64,000 bases of DNA from positions 29,506,166-29,570,165 of the forward strand of contig CAIIXF020000011.1 of NCBI GenBank assembly GCA_903813345.2, written 5' to 3'. The translations under genes were made by a program, and so were the position numbers. The stretch comes from Owenia fusiformis (lineage: Eukaryota > Annelida > Polychaeta > Sabellida > Oweniidae). A model generated the notes under the pieces. That model saw nothing but the letters and a program-made list of their open reading frames with translations, did no database searches and was not told the DNA's origin. Of the stretch, positions 1,515 to 14,371 are shown piece after piece. Position 1 is the stretch's first letter, and each line of letters opens with the position of its first letter.

Positions 1515-3234
1515 TGGACTAAACGTATGTTTGTGTTAAAACTACTTAAAACACAAGTGACTCTTGCAAAATGAGCACTTAAACAAGGGTGTTTTGGATA
1601 TTAGACCACAATAGAGTATCTATGAATGGATAACCATCTCATATTTGAATACTGGCTGGTATTGGCTTCTTTATGTAAAAGTATAATCCCTTGGATATTG
1701 AACTTTGTAAGTACTTTAAAGTTCATTGTGACACAGACTAAATACTATCAAAAACTGCTACATACAGTATGAATGTTTATCTACACATTATTTGGTAGTA
1801 GACGTATAATTTAAAGCTAATAGTGCATTATATACTCACACCAAAATAAGACAGAATTTAGTATATCCCAAAACATTTTTCTTAATAAACAAGAGAACTT
1901 TGACATAAGGTAAAGTTCATTTTCTACTTAAAATATTTTGAAAAAATGAAAATTTTAGTTTAATTTACAGTGAATCTCATAAATTGATGTGTGCGCCAAA
2001 ATTTAAAACTGCGCAGGCGCAGCGCTCTCGCTAACCTATATAACTAAGTAGAGGAGTGTAGAACAATATTCTAGATGTGATGAGTAGAAATAATCTTTAT
2101 TTACTTCAAAATTATTCAAAATTTAGTTAAAGGGATATCATAGTCTACATGTAAAATTGCATCTAGAAATGTGGTTTAAAAAAGTATTTATCAACTTTGA
2201 AAATTTAATCTTCTTCGAAAATGTGACTTCTAGGTCGGGGAGATTCCCCATAGACCCAATATCACAAAAATGAGATATCTTTTCTTGTGTTGGGCAGATA
2301 TTTTTTTTTACTGGACATATTTTCGTTTGTATAATTATCAAACACGTAAGGATTATATGAAAATTGACCCACTTAAACTGATAATATTCAAGTTTATGAG
2401 AAAGCTCTTATACGCATACTTGCCATGTTAACTAACCCGAATCAGCCACCTGGTGGTGAAACTGGTAACTACCTACTCGCATCTGGGTAATTCACGTTAT
2501 AAGTTTTATTAGCCACTAATGCCATCTTTCTTTCTCTTCAGTTAAAGGTCACTAGGGTTCTTCAGCAGATTGTTGAAGTCTATTTTTGCTTGTTTTTGCT
2601 AAAACCAATGGACCATGAACACAATTTTCGGCCTAACATCCACTCTTACTCTGGAAGTAATCTCTCCCTAGTGTTTTTAACAAACGTTATAAGAAAGTTC
2701 AAAAACAGTACAATGAGTATACTTAATAAATAGTTTCTTTATTTCTCACCAATTTTCTCTAAAAACAAACTCAACAATCTGACTTGTAAATAAAGTTACA
2801 TGCAAACCCATGTGGCAATGAAATTCAGCAATATAAATTGTAACCAGGCTATTATGACATATAACTCCAGTTGGCAATTAAAAAAGTTAAACTTGCAATA
2901 TGAGTTGTAGAAAGGCTTTTTAATTTAAGACATACAAATCTATTTAGCAATGAAAAAAGTTCTCGGCTCAAATAATTTTACACATCTAGCAAGTGATCAG
3001 TTATCCATGCATGAAAGATATCAGCACAGATGATACAAGTAAATTGTTTAACAATGGACTTTTTTGCAAGATGGACCAAAATAATAAAACAACAGAGCTT
3101 GTACCAAAATAAAACAGCAGAGCTAGTCTACTAAAGACAACAGTTTTTAATATTCTCAGTGTATATTCCTTAATAAGATCACAACATGTAGAGTATCTGA
3201 TATTACTGATGATTCATCTATAGTTCATTAAATG
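1515..3234. other. spacer between convergent genes, with repeat A copy 2
   Basis: This is the shared 3' flank of the phosphatase-like gene (+) and PDHA (-). Repeat family A copy 2 occupies about 2072-2495, with the same orientation and ends as the copy at 735-1178. A GC-rich NRF-1-like word (TGCGCAGGCGCA) sits near 2011-2022, just outside it. A minus-strand AATAAA at 2738-2743 is a good candidate for the distal PDHA poly(A) signal. No other gene was seen. Confidence 0.6.
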
Positions 3235-3402
3235 TTATTGCCTAGATTCTGCATTTACAAAAGGATCTACTGTACGTGCAGTAAAGTCTTTAGGGGCATC
3301 CTTGAATACATGGTCGTATAGTAGTTCCATAGGTGGCTCAGGGTCAGCCTTTGCTCTCTTTACTCCTTCTTCCACAGTTTTACGTACCTCTGTTTCAATA
3401 GC
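3235..3402 (-). CDS. PDHA1: PDHA alternative terminal exon 9b (distal)
   Basis: Preceded by ACTTCAG on the minus strand, phase 0 with exon 8, open for 55 codons to TAA. It encodes [19 protein letters not shown], then [14 protein letters not shown] and a divergent tail. The ADPEPP block is the canonical one in animal E1-alpha. By eye it is only about one-third identical to exon 9a, so the duplication is not recent. A minus-strand AATAAA at 2738-2743 could serve as its poly(A) signal. Confidence 0.9.
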   Translation of the reverse strand, partial: AIETEVRKTVEEGVKRAKADPEPPMELLYDHVFKDAPKDFTARTVDPFVNAESRQ

Positions 3403-6400
3403 CTGAAGTGCATAAATATAATCAGTTGAATGTTAAAATATATGTAAATATTAAAGATGCTACATGCTAAGGACCTGTGTCAAATATGTGTCATATTTAC
3501 ATGTAGAAATAGTTGGGGGAGGAGAGCTGAAAATATTGAGGGTCTTATCATGTGTTAAATCAATTACTTGACAATTTGACATGACTCCTAAAGTATTCCA
3601 ATAGATGAATTTTCTGACTCCTAAAGTATTCCAATGGATGAATTTTCTGTTGTTTACTCCCTCCTGTTAGTGATCATAATAGAAGTAGTTCTACTGTCTT
3701 GTGGAGGAACAAGAGAAATATAAAACAATTCATAAAAAAATAGTACTACTATACATACAATATACCTGGATATCAAATAATCATATAAATGTGCAGTTTT
3801 AAGCACATAAATATATTTTAAGTTTTACAAAGCATCAGCAACATACTTGTAAGAGTCACATTTGCTCTCTGATTAGTCTGTTAGTGTAGCATTTGTAATT
3901 ACTCATTCATATATTAATAATAAAGCACATTGTCATGATTTCAAGCACACAATATTAAGTGATATGAATGTTGATGATGGGCAAATCAAAATGTTAACAT
4001 GAAAAGCAACAGGGCAGTAACTTGCATTAACAAAATGTTACCACCTGCCATTTGTTACAGACAGCGACCGCCAGATGTCAAACAATGTCCACAAAAATGT
4101 TGGAGACTATAATAATATGTCACCACTTGTGGAGGTGAAATAAAAAACTATTGAAGCACAAAGTTTAGAGCTCCAAACTTCCAATCTCAGTCCTTCAGTC
4201 TCATTCATCAACCTAAATAATAAATTGTGTTTTAGATCTACAATACACCGATGGCTTGATGGTTTAATGCATAAAGCAGAATTTACAGCCTTGCATTTAA
4301 AAGCCAAGAACAAAACATAGATTTTATTTTTCTGTCACCATTTAGTGACCTGTGACAAATGATAATTGCTGCAAGACAGAGCAAGGCATTAACATGCAAA
4401 ATATCACCACCTGCCATTTTTACATATGCCAAGCGGTGTTACAGATGCAGACAGCCAAACACAAACCGCAAACACAAACAGTACTTCTGGTGGTGACATA
4501 ATAAATGAAGGAAAAACTAGATTTACAATGATATACACTCAAATTAACATGTAGCATATAGTTATAAGTGTCTTAACAGTTTGAAATACTGACACCAAAT
4601 TAATCCAATATGCTGTAAGCAATAGAAGCCTATGTTCCTTCAAAGTGTACAGAAAAGTAAAGCTGTCATACAAGTTGATTTTACCATAGGTATGGTTCAC
4701 TTATTGAGCAACTCCAGATGTTATGCTTTGACATCCCCTTATTGGGAAATCTTTCGCTTGGTCTACATATACATGTTCATATAACGCTTCTAGCTCAATC
4801 TCAGGGTCATTGCGAGATCTTTCAACTGCACTATCCACCTCTTTGCGGACTTGCTTGTCAACAGCCTGCGAGGATGCAATTAGAGTTGAAATAAAACAGA
4901 TATAATTGCACATTTTGTGTATTAATTGGTCAGTGGGGGCAAATCATCAAAATAACACAAATTAAATAAATAAATAAAAACAACCAGACCAACGGCAACG
5001 CCAAAGCGTGGCAAATCCCATCGAACAGAAATGGCTGGCATTTTTACAAACAAAATATATAGCAAATATCATAAAACAACACACCAGAAAGGCCACCATT
5101 TTCAAAATGGTTGCTCACTAGCCAAGTTGTCATCAGAAGAAATAATATGCTTTTAAATAGCCACCTATAAAATTCGCACAGATGTACTTGTAAAATGGTG
5201 GCCATTTTCAAAATGGCCGACTACTCCCCAAAGTTTTATTAGACAATGTGCCATGCTTAAAGTATTAACATATCAAATATGAACAAAATCGCTCCACTAC
5301 ATTTCGGGTTACAGTAAAAAATGTAAAAATGACAGCCATTTTTTAAAATGGCCGCCTTCTATCCGAAGTGTCATGAGACAGTGTGCAATGCTCATGAGTA
5401 TTCACATATCAAATATGAACAAAATCGCTTCACTACTTTTCAAGTTATAGTAAAAACGTAAAAATGGTGGCCATTTTTCAAAATGGCCGCCTACTACCCA
5501 AAGTGTCATTAGACAGTGTGCCATACTTATAGTCTTCATATAAAATATGAAACATACCAAATATGAACAAAATCGCTGAACTACTTTTCAAGTTATAGCA
5601 AAATATGTTAAAATGGTGCCATTTTTCAAAATGGCCACCTTCTACCAAAAGTGTAATTAGACAGTGTGCCATGCTTTAAGTATTCAGAAACCAAATATAA
5701 ACAAAATCGCTCCACTACTTTTCGAGTTATATTAAAATACGTTAAAATGGATTTTTTAAAATGGCCACCTTCTACCAAAAGTGTCATTAGACAGTGTGCC
5801 ATGCTTATAGTATTCACATACCAAATATGAACAAAATCGCTTCACTACTTTTCGAGTTATAATAAAATACGTTAAAATGGTGGCCATTTTTAAAAAAAAA
5901 ATTCAAAATGGCCGCCTTCTACCAAAAGTGTCATAGGACAGTGTGCCATGCTTATAGTATTCACATACCAAATATGATCAAATTGCTCCACTTCTTTTCG
6001 AGTTATAGTAAAATATGTTAAAATGGTGGCCATTTTGAAAAATGGCCGCCTTCTACCAAAAGTGTCTTTATACAGTGTGCAATGTTTATAGTATTCACAT
6101 ACCAAATATGAACAAAATTGCTGTACTACTTTTCGAGTTACAGCAAAAATCGTAAAATAACGAGTAAAGGCCGCCATTTTTCAAGATGGCTGCCATGTGC
6201 TTTTTTAATATCTACATTTGTAGCTTTATTAATGTCCTTTATAATTTTTTTACATTTAAAACATATTGCTATTACAGTTTTACATATTGCACCTAAATTA
6301 CTGTAAAATCGGCACTAAAATGGCCGCCATTTTGAAATGAGTGGCCATTTTGAAAATCAGCTTTCGAGCAGAACTTCAACCTCCATAGGGTATATGTGTA

Positions 6401-9400
6401 CAAAATATGAACAAAATCGGGCCAACGGTATTTGAGTTATTGCCCGGACGGACGGACGGACGGACGGAGGCGTTCCCTATATCCCTCCGAACTTCGTTCG
6501 ATGGGATAATTAATCAAAAGATAAAATGAAGCATTCATCAATGTTACACTGCAAAAATCATTCTCTAGTTTCAACAGACATCTCTTCAAATACACTGTAC
6601 ACTGTAGGGTAATCATGCAGTCTCTCGTATTAGGTAACCTGGTTTATTTGTGAAAAATGTGTAATACAAGATGTCAACATTTGAGACAGCTGAACACTTA
6701 CACAAAATGTTTTTTGCTACTAACCTTGATCTCATCAGCTGTAGCTAGATTTGATGTTAATATCTTTTCTTTAAAAAGCATGATGGGGTCCCTTTTTTGT
6801 CGCACTTCTTGAACTTCATCACGACTTCGGTAACTGCAACAAAAAATAAATGTTCATCACTAATTCAAGAAAGGTGTCTGAGATTAATAAAAATTATTCA
6901 CTTGTTTCCATTGGAAACACAAAGGTTAATTTCTAACATTTGCAGTGGCCAAAAAATTATAAAAATCTGTATTTGCAATCCAAATCAATCAACAGATTGT
7001 ATTGTGAAAGTGAAAAGACACACAGGCAATCAAACTCTCACCTTGTACCAGGATCACTCATACTGTGGCCACTGTACCTATAGGTGGCCAACTCCAACAG
7101 GATTGGTCCCTTGCCTGAACGACAATAATCTGCAGCATACTTAGTGGCCTCACGAACTGTCAGCACATCCATTGCATCAACCTGATTAAGACAATTAAGA
7201 AATAAACCCTATCTAGAAAACATAACTGGCTTACTGGAAGTTCATTATCCTTTTACTATCATGGTAACAACAGGGGATTCTCGTAACTGTTCAGATAATG
7301 TACACCAGATTATTAAAAGAAAAGTATGACATATTGTGTTTCTTACGTATATTCCTGGTACATAGTCGCCTCTTGTATAGTAATCAGTGCTAGCAGATGC
7401 TCTCTCTACGCTGGTTCCCATCCCATAACCATTGTTCTCACACACAAATATGGCAGGAACATCCCAAAGTTTAGCCATATTGAAAGCTTCGAAAAGTTGC
7501 CCTTGGTTTGCTGCGCCATCTCCATATAGTGCTATTGTGACATTGTCCTTGCCTTGGTACTTCTGAGCGAAGGCTATGCCAGCCCCTAGAGGAATCTGAA
7601 ATCAGAATTCATTGAACAAGTCAAGAAAATACAGTTACTATGAATACATGTACTTTAAATATGGTTCTAATTTCTCTTGTTTTTCACCTCTTGTAGTCTC
7701 ATATATGACACAAAAAACATTCAGTTTACAAACTTGTAAAGAATCTAATACAAAACATATTACTGTGTTTTAAAGATAAACCCAAAACACCACTTGATAC
7801 AGCCCTGATGATGCATTTTACATTTTTCCATCTTCTCAAGACAGAACTAGAAACCCATCAAAATAAAATGCCAAAAGTCTGGCACAGAGGGCTTTTACTA
7901 GGGGCTCATTCGATGACTAATAATGTCACGTTTGAATTTTGAGACAGTTGATATTTTCATTTACTTAATATAGGAAGATAACAGTGCAACTGTACCATAT
8001 TAATATCATGGTGTTATGTAAGTTGCTCACCTGTGCACCAACAATACCATTTCCACCATAGAAATTATCAGTGTACATGTGCATGGAACCACCTTTGCCC
8101 TTAGCACAGCCAGAGATTCTACCTGAAAACAACATGATCAACTTTATACCAGATATACGAGTACATGTTAATAAATGATGGACCTTTTGAACTTGCTTTA
8201 CAAATTTTTCACTGGTTGGTTATCTACTATATGCTTCAATCTACTGAACAAAAACAGACATGTATATATGTATATACATGTATATTAAAACGAATATGAC
8301 AATAAAAGACTTTGAGACATCAACATGTCAACAACAAAAATGCAGAAAAAATGCTTTCAGAATTCCATTGACAAAGATATCATTGTTCTAGCGCAATTAA
8401 AATTACTCAAACGACTAAAATATTTTTCACTTCTCCAAAAGGTTAGATCAGCAAAATAGAACCCTTGGAAAATCAAAAATTGTCGCATTATCGAATTGTC
8501 GAATTAATAATGCAGTCTTTACTATCTCAACCTACTGTTAGTGAGATTCTAAGAGAATAAGGAAGAGGAGGGTGTGGTTTACCACAATGCAATTCATAAT
8601 AATCTAGTTGTTCACCTGTAAGTTCAGCTAGTACACCCAGGACAGGCACTCCACGCATGTAAGTCCATCCATGTGCCCTATATGCAGTGATCACTGCATC
8701 ATCAGGTCTAATACCTGCCTCCATCCCAACACAGCATGCTTCCTATAATGTAAATGGGTAACAGTCTCCTCTTAACATTACCCTGTATTCTCATCAACTA
8801 AATACATCACCCTCTGAGAATAACAGAGGATTCTACAGTTTTGTTACCAATAATATTTTAACCTTTACCATGCTGCCTTATTTCAGCAAATATATCCCAC
8901 GCAACTGGCTTATTTTTCAAAGAGTGCAAAAAATGATATACCTGGACTAAATAATTAATATCTCAATAACTACTGAATGAATCTGGATAAAATTTTCACA
9001 AAGGGAAGATACAGTGGCCTGGCTCATGAAAAAAATGTTCTCATGAATTTTTTCGTACATTAACACGACTGGGCATAAATATACCATGAATACTCCTCCG
9101 GAATCCGCCGCTCCGCCTCTTCGTCTGGTCAGAATCCAAATCTGAATTTGCAGCGATCGAATGTTCAATTTTTCAATTCAGAAAATATTCTAGTTTCTAT
9201 TTTCGATGACCGTTATCGGCTTCCAAGAGCCTAAAGAGCTCGAAATCGTAATCCATTTCCTCCACATTTTCGTTGTTATCGTATTTGTCCACCATTTTGT
9301 ACGATTCGTTCACTAAAAACGACTAAAACACTGTTTAAATTGTTGAATTGAGAATTATTTTTCGAAATATCGCCATTTCTAGGTCAACAGGAAGTCATGT

Positions 9401-12400
9401 TAGGCACTGAATAAATCGGGCAATCTAATTGGACAATACGAATGGCGCGAATAAGTAAAGTTTTTAAAAGTTTGAAATCGGGCGTACGGGTCCGCCCGCA
9501 GTTGTGAGAGACATTTTAGTCTCGGCGGACGAGTCCGCCGGCAGCACGCTAAAGGTTAATGAAAACTGCTTGACTATTCAAAATATACTCATGGATTATG
9601 GCTGTAAGGCAATTTTCAAAAGATCAACTGTTTGCCGAGGAGTAGTGAGGAAAACACGGTAAAAGACCTGACAAAGACTAGCTTGCTATATATGCACACA
9701 CCTGTCCAGAATAAAGATGGCAGAATCCTCTGATGATCTTTTCTTTGTAGAGATTCCCAGCTGCCGTCTCCATACGTCTTATAGTCTGCATCTGTTGGTA
9801 GAACTTGAGGGCGTCATCACGGGTCAAGGTCGACTCACTGGCTGGGGGTGTGTCCAGTCTATGTAGCTTGTATTCCTGGAATGTCAATATGAATATATTC
9901 TGAAGATGTGGTATAGTTGTAGAATGCAATATAAAGAACTATAATACTAAGACGAGTTAACATTTCTACATATAAAATATAACCTTCTCCAGTAGTATGA
10001 TAGATATTGTTATCGCAACAGTATTACTCAACTTACAATATCAATGCAATGTACATACAGTATATGTCGGGGGTTTCATTAGCAACTGGCAACAGGCGAT
10101 TTTCACCAATTGTTTTTACTAAATTGTCTGATGTTTTAAGGGACTTCAACTTTTCCATGTTAAATTGATGATTTCCATTAATTTTGCCCATTGTTTTCAT
10201 TTATTTAGCCTGTTGTGAGAAATTCTAGTGAAACCCCTGTACATGTACATGCAAACTGTATACAAATTGATATTCTAATGATGCATTTCACTCAACATAT
10301 TGTATAGGAGCCCTGAAATGAGCCTACCTTAGTGGGGAAAGTGGCTTCAGTCACTGTTGAGCTGAAATCTCTGGTCACTCCAGCACTGCTAACCTCCCTA
10401 CCAGTGGTGTTTCTGGCTGCAAGACCAACACTCTGAAAATGTATAGCATCATTTAATGATGAGAATACATAACAATGTAAAAAACATGATATAAAATATA
10501 ATCATAGACCCAGAACGCTATTAACATGGACTAGGCCTAGTAACCACCTCATATAGAGGAATGTGTTGAATAATAGTAGAAATGCTCCTAAAGAGACACA
10601 ATAGACAATACAATCAAATGTTACATTCTTATATCAAAATTCATTATAAAACTCTGATAAAAACTATTCCTATGCAATTTATACTATGTATGGATACTTT
10701 CCTATAACATTTTGAAGAAGGTTACTATTTCTTTGTTTCTTAATACTAGACATTACAACTTGAGCCAGCGTTGATACTGACAATGACAATGCAGACAGAG
10801 AATAAAACATAAACGGAAATAAAAAAATAAAAACATTTAATTAGACATTCATTGAAAACAGAAAATGATGCCATGCTATTGCATTCTATCACAGTATTTT
10901 AATGTAAAAGAAACCAGAATTTCTTTCAGAATACAGCCATGATAGCAAATAAAGAAACAGAAAGACAGGTAGGTTAACATTACATTTCAAAACAACCAAG
11001 AAGATATTCACGGTGTATAACCCAAACGCTCCTACATGCACGACGGAGCGTTTCATTTACGCGGAAACGCTCCGGAGCGAAATAAAATGGCGGCTAATGA
11101 AGATTCCACTATGACCGTAAGTATTGTTCCTCTCGTTTCTCTTACATATCATATGTTATGGTGAAATATTATGTACCATTCGATGAACGATACCGTGAGC
11201 AAAGATCTGATTTATTCATCTTCTGGTGGTAAACTGTTATTTGCTTGATCAAAGCTCCGTAGTGTAGATCGAACGAATCTGAAGATGACGATTTGACCAC
11301 AAATTACGAATTAAACTAGTATTTCTATGAAAACGTTAATCTTTCTGTTAATGTAGTAGATCACAAACTAGTATATTCTCATTTCCTAAAATTCCAGTCC
11401 AAATCCATTACTTGTTCTCGAGAAATCGCTTGTTTTCCTCGAAACGCTCCGTCGATTTAGAACACAATTTTAGAAACGCTCTTACCATTTTGTTTTGATA
11501 TAATTTTCAGATTATTAGAGAAGAGTTTCGAATCGAATCTATCTCTCAAAAACGTGTTGTACTTGTTAGGTAAATTGAAACATGTGAACCTGGTGGTGCT
11601 AAACGTGCAACTAGCTGATTTAAGCCTACATTAGATGATGTCATGCCTACATATGTGCTAAATCATAAAACTATAGTAAAAACGAAAATTTATATGTGAA
11701 TTAATCTTTCTTCTATTGATGCCAAGGGGTATAATAGATCTTTTCTTTCTCTTCCTGAAAAGAAAATGCAAGCTATATATTTTCTAAACTGATCTAGACT
11801 ACTGGAGCATTTCCAGTTCACTGTGTTAACCAGATCGGAGCGTTTCTTGAATATGAGAATGTCATCATTTTTAAGACTGGATTTTCTATCATCAAATCAC
11901 TATTACGATAATGTATGGTGCGTTGAAGCATTGGAATTTGACTAAAATATACGTTGGTGCTCTAATCTTAGCTCAACTAATCACATGTCTCGACAAAAGG
12001 GGTTTTGACCGGTAGAATGACAAATACGTTTTTGAATTTTGATAACTATACTGCTATGTACAGCTCTTCCTAATTGCTTCAAACCTCAACAGCCAGCCAA
12101 GTACAACATGAATATCACACCCATCGAATGGTATACTCGAAATATGTAACTCATACCTCTTATTCCCATTATTGGGGAAATCGTCAGACGGCTCATCATT
12201 CCCGCCAGTCAGTATTCCTACTCCGTAGCGGTTCTTTGTTTAAGTTCAGTAATGAAACGCTCCGTCATGCATGTAGGAGCGTTTGGGTTATACACCGTGA
12301 TATTACAGTTTGAATCATTTGGACACTTTTTAATAAAATTTTAAAGTTTAGCTAATAATGTCTACCATTGTCTGGTTGTTGCAGCTGTTGCTTTGAAAAA

Positions 12401-14371
12401 ATATATATATATGAAAGGTCTTGAGCAAAGAGCAACACTTTTGACTTTTATGATATTCTTAAAAAAGCTATTGATTTTTTTCCATTAAAAGCAGTGTTTA
12501 TTCACTGTTAATTTGGGTGTAAATTGGTTCCTGGGAAGGATGCATTTTTCAACTCGAGCCTTCCTCGGTTTCTTTTTTTATAAGCTATATTCTATTAAAA
12601 GATTCTGGCTACTTTACTTGAAATGGCTACCTATAACAATGGGGCTACATCATTGTACAAAAGTCAAGACTTGATAACAAAATCAAAATCATGCAAACTC
12701 AAAGACTAAAATATAAGAAATAATATATATCACAATTGTGTTGACGTCATTGATCACTCTTTTCACAAAATGCATTTAAAGCTAGCATTCGTCTAGCTGG
12801 AACCATATCATTTGCATTTAGAGTCTAGACCTTGAATAATCCAAACCTGAATTACAAGTTTTCTGGTATTACATTCCATTAATAAATGATATAGTCAAAT
12901 CACATTAAATCAATGAATATTGTTTTTTAAATGCGTACTTTTTAACACATGTTACTTGTAACATTTTAATTGGGGAGTCATTTGATTAATACTTGAGTAT
13001 AATATGCCTCCTAGTAGACAGAATAACTAAATAGAATTGCTTGTATTTAAATACCTCAGCGATGTATTGATAGACCTGTTAAAACACATTATACACGTGA
13101 TGAAGATAAATGTACATAAAAGTACATGTTTTAACTGTTACAAATATATATTTGCTGCACCTTTATGGTAAATGGTCTTTTGCCTTTGACCATAACTGGA
13201 CTTGACAGTTTGGCCTACTATTATGTGACATTCACATCACATTGACCAGCTGATACCTATAGGGGCCTTAAAATCACAATAATATCAATATAATGACCTA
13301 GTAATTAACTTTGACCTACAAAAGGCAATGAAAACCTCAGTAGTGAATGAATTAGGTCTGAAACTTTTTAATTCAATGAAACAATTCCTAATGCAAGCCA
13401 GAAAATCATTTTGAACTGAACTGTGTCAGAAATAAACTCATGTCTGAGCACTCTTCCAGTTTGTTTGTAGGCTGCAGCACTATAATCCTTGATACAGCAA
13501 TACTTACAAATACAAGGCTTGCCACTGTTTGGTTAAAAATTGTATATCTAGCCTCAATCTAATCTCATAATGCAAACCTATCCAAAATCTTGTTGTAGAA
13601 AGAATCAAAATACAAGGTAATAAGACCAAAACTCGCAATTCAAATTGTGATGTGGAAAAATGGCAAACATTCAGACTTCAAATTTCATGATTACGACATG
13701 ACCATATATAGCGACATGATTCACATCAGGCAGAGTAAATAACACGCAGGGATTTATCTTTGGACAAAGGCCACGATATAGTGGCCATAGAAGAAGGTAA
13801 ATTTCAACCATGGGGCTAATTTCGACGTTGTCTTATATTCTTAAGTCCGCCATGTTTTTTTGAAAAATTTAAATCTCCAATAGGCGAGATCTTAGTTCAA
13901 GATGGCTGACCCTGGAAATTGCAATTGTGAAAATAACCCCATGGTCGAAGTAGCCCGATGACGAATGAATCCTACAAAGTTCGATGCATCTCCCCTATAC
14001 ACAGATTACAAAAGTTCCCTTTTAGAATCCACTTTTCATGTTGAAATACAGAACTCTATCCTATTCTCATGAATTTTGCTGCTGTCGATGTGTCAAGATC
14101 ATATCCTGAACCTCAATCAGAATTTTCAAAAATTGAACTGTTCGACATTCAGACTAAATATTAATCATTTCTTTGCAGATTCATAATTACTAAATATTAA
14201 GAATTCTGTGCCGCATTGACAATTAAGTAGGCTTAAACCAGAAGCTAAAAAGTCGCCTAAAATAAAATCCATCCGCTGATGATAAAATTATTTCGAAAAA
14301 CTTACCGCTTTTAAGTTTGATCCGAAGTATTTAACACATCTGGAGGTTTTACTCAACATATTTATGCTCAT
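3235..14371 (-). CDS. PDHA1: pyruvate dehydrogenase E1 component subunit alpha, mitochondrial
   Basis: TPP-dependent decarboxylase subunit of the mitochondrial pyruvate dehydrogenase complex. Exons, in minus order: 14306-14371, 10328-10432, 9702-9875, 8616-8742, 8031-8122, 7347-7595, 7042-7181, 6725-6833, then alternative last exon 4701-4865 or 3235-3402. All have GT/AG borders and agreeing phases (0,0,0,1,0,0,2,0). The product is 408 or 409 aa, against ~390 in human. The N-terminus, rich in Ser, Lys and Arg, looks like a mitochondrial presequence. The TPP motif GDG (residues ~213-215) to NN (~242-243) is present. The regulatory serines are all kept: MGTSVER (~S250, site 3), YSGHSMSD (~S311, site 1), PGTSYR (~S318, site 2). 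The His two residues before the site-1 motif's GHS in human is Ser here. Introns host a satellite-bearing element, a piggyBac-like MITE, a small MITE and a Transib-like element. Confidence 0.95.
4020..4500. repeat. repeat family C, two copies (about 4020-4135 and 4385-4500)
   Basis: Both copies start with CATTAAC near a CACCTGCCATTT block and end at GGTGACATAATA or the related TATGTCACCAC word. The reverse complements occur at about 26835-26965 and 29300-29430, in GDAP2 introns. Copies are ~120-130 bp with terminal GTCACCAC/GGTGGTGAC words, consistent with a MITE. Family membership is clear; the class is not. Confidence 0.6.
4701..4865 (-). CDS. PDHA1: PDHA alternative terminal exon 9a (promoter-proximal)
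   Basis: Preceded by a CAG acceptor (CTCGCAG on the minus strand), phase 0 with exon 8, open for 54 codons to TAA. It encodes a C-terminal PDHA segment: [26 protein letters not shown], then KDFPIRG, the counterpart of the FEVRG tail in mammalian E1-alpha. A minus-strand AATAAA at about 4323-4328, roughly 375 nt past the stop, could end a short mRNA. It has no frameshift or premature stop, so it is not an obvious pseudoexon. Use of 9a or 9b is mutually exclusive because each carries its own stop. Confidence 0.88.
   Translation of the reverse strand, partial: AVDKQVRKEVDSAVERSRNDPEIELEALYEHVYVDQAKDFPIRGCQSITSGVAQ
4979..6511. mobile_element. satellite-bearing repeat element, copy 1 (PDHA intron 8)
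   Basis: About 1.5 kb. One end carries ACCAGACCAACGGCAACGCC and the other CCTCCGAACTTCGTTCGATG; between them is a tandem array of about seven 133-147 bp units (marker CAGTGTGCCATG near 5246, 5382, 5515, 5662, 5795, 5942 and 6078). Each unit carries AAAATGGC/GCCATTTT inverted words. A (GGAC)n tract lies at about 6446-6468. The same organisation occurs inverted at 42936-44362. Several short reading frames run through the units in parallel; they are products of the repeat, not genes. The transposition class is unknown. Confidence 0.75.
8862..9555. mobile_element. piggyBac-like non-autonomous element, copy 1 (PDHA intron 3)
   Basis: Flanked by TTAA on both sides (8858-8861 and 9556-9559). Inverted ends are CCTTTACCATGCTGCC and GGCAGCACGCTAAAGG. 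TTAA target duplications with a CC..GG end are the piggyBac hallmark. The element is 694 bp and lies in an intron of PDHA. It is almost identical to the copy at 47676-48358, which lacks 11 bp near the left end and otherwise differs at about two positions by eye. Confidence 0.85.
9197..9295 (-). pseudogene. piggyBac-type transposase N-terminal remnant, copy 1
   Basis: A 32-codon frame starting ATGGTGGAC encodes a strongly acidic peptide ([20 protein letters not shown]) and ends in TAG. Downstream on the same strand, another frame reads [12 protein letters not shown]. Acidic N-termini are typical of piggyBac transposases, so this may be the 5' piece of the parent transposase left in a deletion derivative. 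No catalytic region is present. Confidence 0.4.
10068..10239. mobile_element. short MITE with GGGGTTTCA ends, copy 1
   Basis: A 172-bp sequence with inverted ends (GGGGTTTCATTAG and CTAGTGAAACCCCTG), closely related to 57789-57962. The shared core includes TGATTTCCATTAATTTTGCC and AGCCTGTTGTGAGAAATTCT. It lies in PDHA intron 2. The ends resemble hAT-type CAGGGG termini, but no clean 8-bp duplication was found. Confidence 0.65.
11009..12299. mobile_element. Transib-like TIR element with RSS-like CACGGTG heptamer (PDHA intron 1)
   Basis: Perfect 5-bp target duplication ATATT (11004-11008 and 12300-12304). Terminal inverted repeats of 49 bp with one mismatch start CACGGTGTATAACCCAAACG (11009-11057 and 12251-12299). 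Five-bp duplications plus a CACnrTG heptamer are features of Transib, the relative of RAG recombinase. The word GAAACGCTCC or its complement recurs inside (near 11063, 11441, 11471 and 11836) as subterminal repeats. The element is 1291 bp with no recognisable transposase. It may be a new non-autonomous family; the superfamily call is inference. Confidence 0.7.
11087..11569 (+). pseudogene. two short first exons inside the Transib-like element
   Basis: Just inside the left TIR is AAAATGGCGGCT, a good start context, followed by a 10-codon exon (11087-11116) ending at a GTAAGT donor. A pyrimidine-rich TTTTCAG acceptor at 11504-11510 opens a second exon (11511-11569) in the same phase, ending at GTAAAT. 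The joined peptide is [10 protein letters not shown] then [19 protein letters not shown]. No further exon was found before the right TIR. It may be the start of the parental transposase or a captured host 5' end. I do not recognise the peptide. Confidence 0.4.

Follow-up and report, generated by a model that had tools for sequence, protein, structure and literature searches.

Candidate alternative last exons in the only detected pyruvate dehydrogenase E1-alpha gene of Owenia fusiformis

Pyruvate dehydrogenase connects glycolysis to the citric acid cycle. The isoforms of its E1-alpha subunit come from separate genes in mammals (PDHA1 and PDHA2) and in Ascaris (PDHA type I and type II). PKM has alternative exons that are internal, with splicing as the sole means of choosing between them, and Drosophila aldolase has alternative last exons, a case that was not found in the literature among the best 12 of 34 matches listed. 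Enzyme isoforms obtained by switching of homologous exons, namely, PKM (PKM1/PKM2) and PFKP, are described in the available part of one paper (PMC7954323). According to the available text of another paper (PMC3228551), homologous alternative 3'-terminal exons form a recognised class that is distinct from the strict mutually exclusive type. That paper gives human capping protein beta as a case with separate poly(A) sites, and in its test set 14 of 101 terminal exons with a mutually exclusive annotation have the features of the homologous type. In Drosophila pip, terminal exons occur in tandem clusters; this gene is named among untranslated-region cases in the accessible part of its source (PMC9013439). 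Alternative last exons in PDHA were not found in the titles and abstract starts of the open-licence literature, among the matches listed.

In this study, the PDHA gene in a stretch of 64,000 nucleotides of Owenia fusiformis DNA (the window) was analysed, and genome searches were performed on the 498-Mb assembly (498.3 Mb, 525 contigs). The full gene lies between 14359 and 3235 of the window, on the minus strand, and consists of eight shared exons and two candidate last exons, 9a and 9b (Table 1). The shared exons have AG acceptors and GT donors with a single frame throughout, and exon 8 ends in phase 0 at the donor AAG/GTTAGT. The predicted isoforms comprise 404 aa with 9a and 405 aa with 9b; the first 350 residues are the same, and the last 54 or 55, which form the C-terminal part of the E1-alpha chain, are different. 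The position of exon 8 and the two following phase-0 exons, each with a CAG acceptor, 54-55 codons and a stop of its own, had been recognised in a preliminary description of this DNA and were recovered here, and the span 3235-4865 given there encloses both last exons. Exons 9a and 9b are probably alternative last exons of one PDHA gene, and we infer from the anatomy of the locus that both are used in mRNA through a regulated choice. They show several features of homologous alternative last exons: they are neighbours with related sequences, similar lengths and the same phase, and neither depends on the other for an acceptor or a stop. A strict mutually exclusive cluster is internal, with further exons around it, and its members are selected by splicing only; here 9a and 9b both end in a stop codon, and no further coding exon of PDHA was found 3' of 9b.

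Table 1. Positions in the window of the PDHA exons and candidate poly(A) signals, in order of transcription
Feature	Position	Strand	Remarks
PDHA exon 1, coding part	14306..14359	-	predicted mitochondrial leader; donor GTAAGT; joins exon 2 in phase 0
PDHA exon 2	10328..10432	-	gene model
PDHA exon 3	9702..9875	-	gene model
PDHA exon 4	8616..8742	-	gene model and E1_dh match
PDHA exon 5	8031..8122	-	gene model
PDHA exon 6	7347..7595	-	gene model; best E1_dh match in the genome
PDHA exon 7	7042..7181	-	E1_dh match; has the shared loop GHSMSDPG
PDHA exon 8, last shared exon	6725..6833	-	E1_dh match; ends in phase 0
Candidate alternative last exon 9a	4701..4865	-	54 aa (ending SGVAQ) and TAA, after CAG
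AATAAA, possible poly(A) signal for 9a	4323..4328	-	372 nt past stop, then GT/T-rich stretch
Candidate alternative last exon 9b	3235..3402	-	55 aa (ending AESRQ) and TAA, after CAG
ATTAAA, possible poly(A) signal for 9b	3146..3151	-	83 nt past stop, first of several
AATAAA, possible poly(A) signal for 9b	2738..2743	-	491 nt past stop

Both exons had been assigned to the C-terminal region of PDHA, and matches to human PDHA1 and to a bacterial profile bear this out. Exon 8 joined to 9b matched human PDHA1 with an E-value of 1.5e-20, in register up to residue 82 of 91, and exon 8 joined to 9a with 3.2e-18, in register up to residue 82 of 90; both values include the contribution of the common exon 8. 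Exons 8-9 are nearer to human PDHA1 than to human BCKDHA, for which the values were 0.018 with 9b and 0.68 with 9a. The Dehydrogenase E1 domain (PF00676) matched the joined exons 4-9a with 1.7e-107 (profile positions 34-298 of 300) and the joined exons 4-9b with 2.5e-108 (positions 34-299 of 300). Against a bacterial PDHA profile, the exon 9 peptides alone scored 19.1 bits (9a) and 21.5 bits (9b); this profile consists of 77 of 80 fetched PDHA-like proteins, mostly alphaproteobacterial by title, which a search with the 9b isoform had retrieved, with a possible slight bias to 9b, and which were aligned alongside both isoforms, a step that may slightly favour both exons. Twenty exon-9 columns are at least 70% conserved in these proteins, and 9a keeps seven and 9b eight of them. 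Exon 9a scores slightly below 9b in every comparison, and has Ile at the second Pro of the DPEP motif, where 9b, the human protein and 77/77 of the bacterial ones have Pro. Open frames alone gave no excess over chance: 4.7 kb contained 17 starts directly behind an AG that open a frame of 50 codons or more, four of them inside 9a or 9b. The assignment thus exceeds chance through the homology of the two exons to PDHA, and not through open frames or AATAAA.

The peptides of 9a and 9b, which the preliminary description judged about one-third identical by eye, measured slightly higher, with 20/54 identities overall (ungapped) and 20/46 in the core. Core identities with human are 17/45 for 9a and 19/45 for 9b. 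The divergence between 9a and 9b is thus about equal to that of each from human, and given these identities neither exon resembles a decayed copy of the other. Silent sites of the core show 22.25 differences in 30.2 sites, corresponding to a rough dS of about 3, near saturation; replacement sites are less changed (dN 0.58). In a simulation of free drift to the observed distance, the mean was 10/46 identities, and none of the 5000 runs started from each exon gave 20 or more; the frame was still open in 3.3% of the runs from 9a and 4.2% of those from 9b, with substitutions only and no indels. Since free drift never reached 20/46, neither exon drifted freely for most of its history. The simulation averages over the whole time since duplication and is blind to a recent loss of one exon. 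Such a loss would leave a single exon in use, either 9b or 9a, with the other being a former duplicate that is still undecayed. This reading is unlikely: the missing Pro of 9a would agree with it, but frames, stops and acceptors are intact in both exons, the conserved columns are kept to a similar extent, and the simulation is incompatible with long-term neutral drift. Both 9a and 9b look like maintained coding exons in view of their homology to PDHA, 20/46 identities at near-saturated silent sites, the drift simulation and the detection of no second PDHA.

Searches of the assembly with exons 9a and 9b at E-values up to 10 returned 9a, 9b and exon 8 only, and thereby no third copy of the last exon. 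A search with the E1_dh profile gave 19 matches, four in the PDHA gene of the window (contig C11) and 15 elsewhere, distributed over C8 at 20.57-20.60 Mb (6), 36.17-36.18 Mb (5) and 6.58 Mb (1) and C9 at 21.31 Mb (3). Six loci from these four regions were read (L002, L003 and L005-L008). Those at 20.57-20.60 Mb (L002, L006 and L007) and 36.17-36.18 Mb (L008) of C8 have the loop RxGHHSTSDDSSAYRS, which we take to be of the BCKDHA type. The locus at 6.58 Mb matched PDHA weakly (best E-value 3.4e-4), and that on C9 had no tblastn match; in view of neighbouring Transket_pyr matches, both were taken as oxoglutarate-dehydrogenase-like. Among the six loci read, all taken as BCKDHA-type or oxoglutarate-dehydrogenase-like, there was no sign of a second PDHA gene or of a retrocopy that would reveal which junction is used, and the searches of the assembly, which are of a kind that can miss weak matches, detected none either. 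The branched-chain E1-alpha appears to be gene-duplicated (two C8 regions), whereas PDHA has a duplicated last exon.

The same searches bear on an artefact of assembly or haplotype, in which one of the two exons would come from another locus or allele. No point in support of this was found, and it is extremely improbable: 48% of the core bases differ between 9a and 9b, far above the allelic level, and this divergence excludes allelic copies; each exon has its full-length match at one place only; and a blastn comparison of the DNA around the two exons (2.9 kb for each, E-value limit 0.1) matched neither exon to the other, its three rows being the stretch common to both queries and short repeats within that stretch.

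Splice signals of the two exons were compared with those of the rest of the gene. Of the 22 positions counted at each acceptor, 15 are pyrimidines in 9a and 13 in 9b, and the seven shared PDHA acceptors have 12-16. Donors were scored with simple weights based on the general donor consensus. Donor-like sites in 9a and in the next 535 nt reached 1.4 at most, and seven of the eight real PDHA donors scored 3.3-6.8. This contrast counts against 9a serving at times as an internal exon ahead of 9b, with 9b then 3' untranslated (differential inclusion). The TAA within 9a would permit such inclusion, and a stop-carrying exon is differentially included in Drosophila muscle myosin, according to the available text of PMC3228551. 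The real donor of exon 6 scores only 0.5, below the best site in 9a and below the highest-scoring donor-like site between 9a and 9b, at 3846 (2.6); donor scores are therefore not decisive against an internal 9a. On the whole, differential inclusion is regarded as very unlikely, and the choice between two last exons is retained as the most likely explanation of the locus.

Plausible poly(A) signals had been proposed for both exons in the preliminary description. Hexamers are indeed present behind 9a and 9b, with a further ATTAAA 60 nt beyond the AATAAA of 9a; the presence of AATAAA is not significant, as it occurs within 500 nt in 28.5% (9a) and 38.5% (9b) of shuffled sequences. Inverted repeats, which might form competing RNA structures, were represented by a 28-nt pair at 3774-3801 and 4901-4928 (71%); it lies in AT-rich DNA and was given no weight as evidence.

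Several repeats were observed around the two exons. The 3' region of 9a (4031-4503) contains paired short repeats at 4031-4053 and 4397-4419 and at 4053-4073 and 4437-4457, together with an inverted GTCACCAC pair at 4113-4126 and 4490-4503, and these resemble a small repeated element. Two tandem 33-bp copies, 97% alike, lie at 3582-3647, about 180 nt upstream of the 9b acceptor. Intron 8 holds about seven tandem copies of 135 bp at 5191-6148 (within about 5020-6510), flanked on the outer sides by the similar words CCATCGAACGAAGTTCGG and TTCGATGGG; this array has the appearance of a mobile element that contains a satellite and entered immediately ahead of the alternative exons.

The arrangement probably arose by an old duplication of the last coding exon in the only PDHA gene detected. 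The exon 8 donor would be spliced to the proximal 9a, followed by cleavage and polyadenylation behind 9a, or would alternatively be spliced past 9a to the distal 9b, and the choice would be regulated through proximal splicing and poly(A) use against skipping. The two isoforms would then tune the E1 heterotetramer and leave untouched the shared part, with its catalytic and phosphorylation sites; the last exon may plausibly affect how the heterotetramer assembles or how stable it is. The loop with the serines of GHS and GTS, which we take to correspond to the two main sites of regulatory phosphorylation (sites 1 and 2), lies in exons 7-8 and does not differ between the isoforms. A direct difference in kinase or phosphatase handling, as first proposed, is therefore unsupported. 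E2 binds mainly E1-beta, so an effect of the last exon on the E2 contact would be indirect. Two isoforms by last-exon choice remain the favoured part of the earlier proposal, with two intact homologous exons and signs of coding constraint on both, and the direct kinase or phosphatase effect and the claim of a new mode are dropped. Homologous alternative 3'-terminal exons have already been described, for example in capping protein beta in the available text of PMC3228551, as has homologous exon switching in the enzymes PKM and PFKP (PMC7954323), and the PDHA case is therefore not a new mode.

Such a mechanism is already known. A PDHA gene that has no detectable paralogue may long have carried two selectable C-termini, and the choice of last exon may allow the lineage to adjust the assembly or activity of E1 to tissue or stage, in parallel to what the PDHA1/PDHA2 gene pair provides in mammals; this broader proposal is tentative, and we hold it somewhat less probable than its converse. 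If both isoforms are made, the locus would constitute an exon-level switch at the pyruvate dehydrogenase step. The depth of divergence between 9a and 9b predicts that the pair is shared by related lineages.

The locus resembles capping protein beta and pip in that its last exons are adjacent, homologous, alike in length and in the same phase, have their own stops and would give alternative C-termini. It differs from them in that PDHA is a mitochondrial enzyme subunit, the exons are far diverged (20/46 in the core) and the poly(A) signals are candidates only. As in PKM1/PKM2, PFKP and aldolase, enzyme isoforms would be set at the exon level by a homologous stretch able to affect subunit contacts or regulation; unlike in PKM, poly(A) use would also take part. 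Finally, two E1-alpha isoforms per animal are predicted here, as in the animals with PDHA1/PDHA2 and with Ascaris type I/II; in those animals the isoforms belong to separate genes, whereas here they would come from one gene with two last exons.
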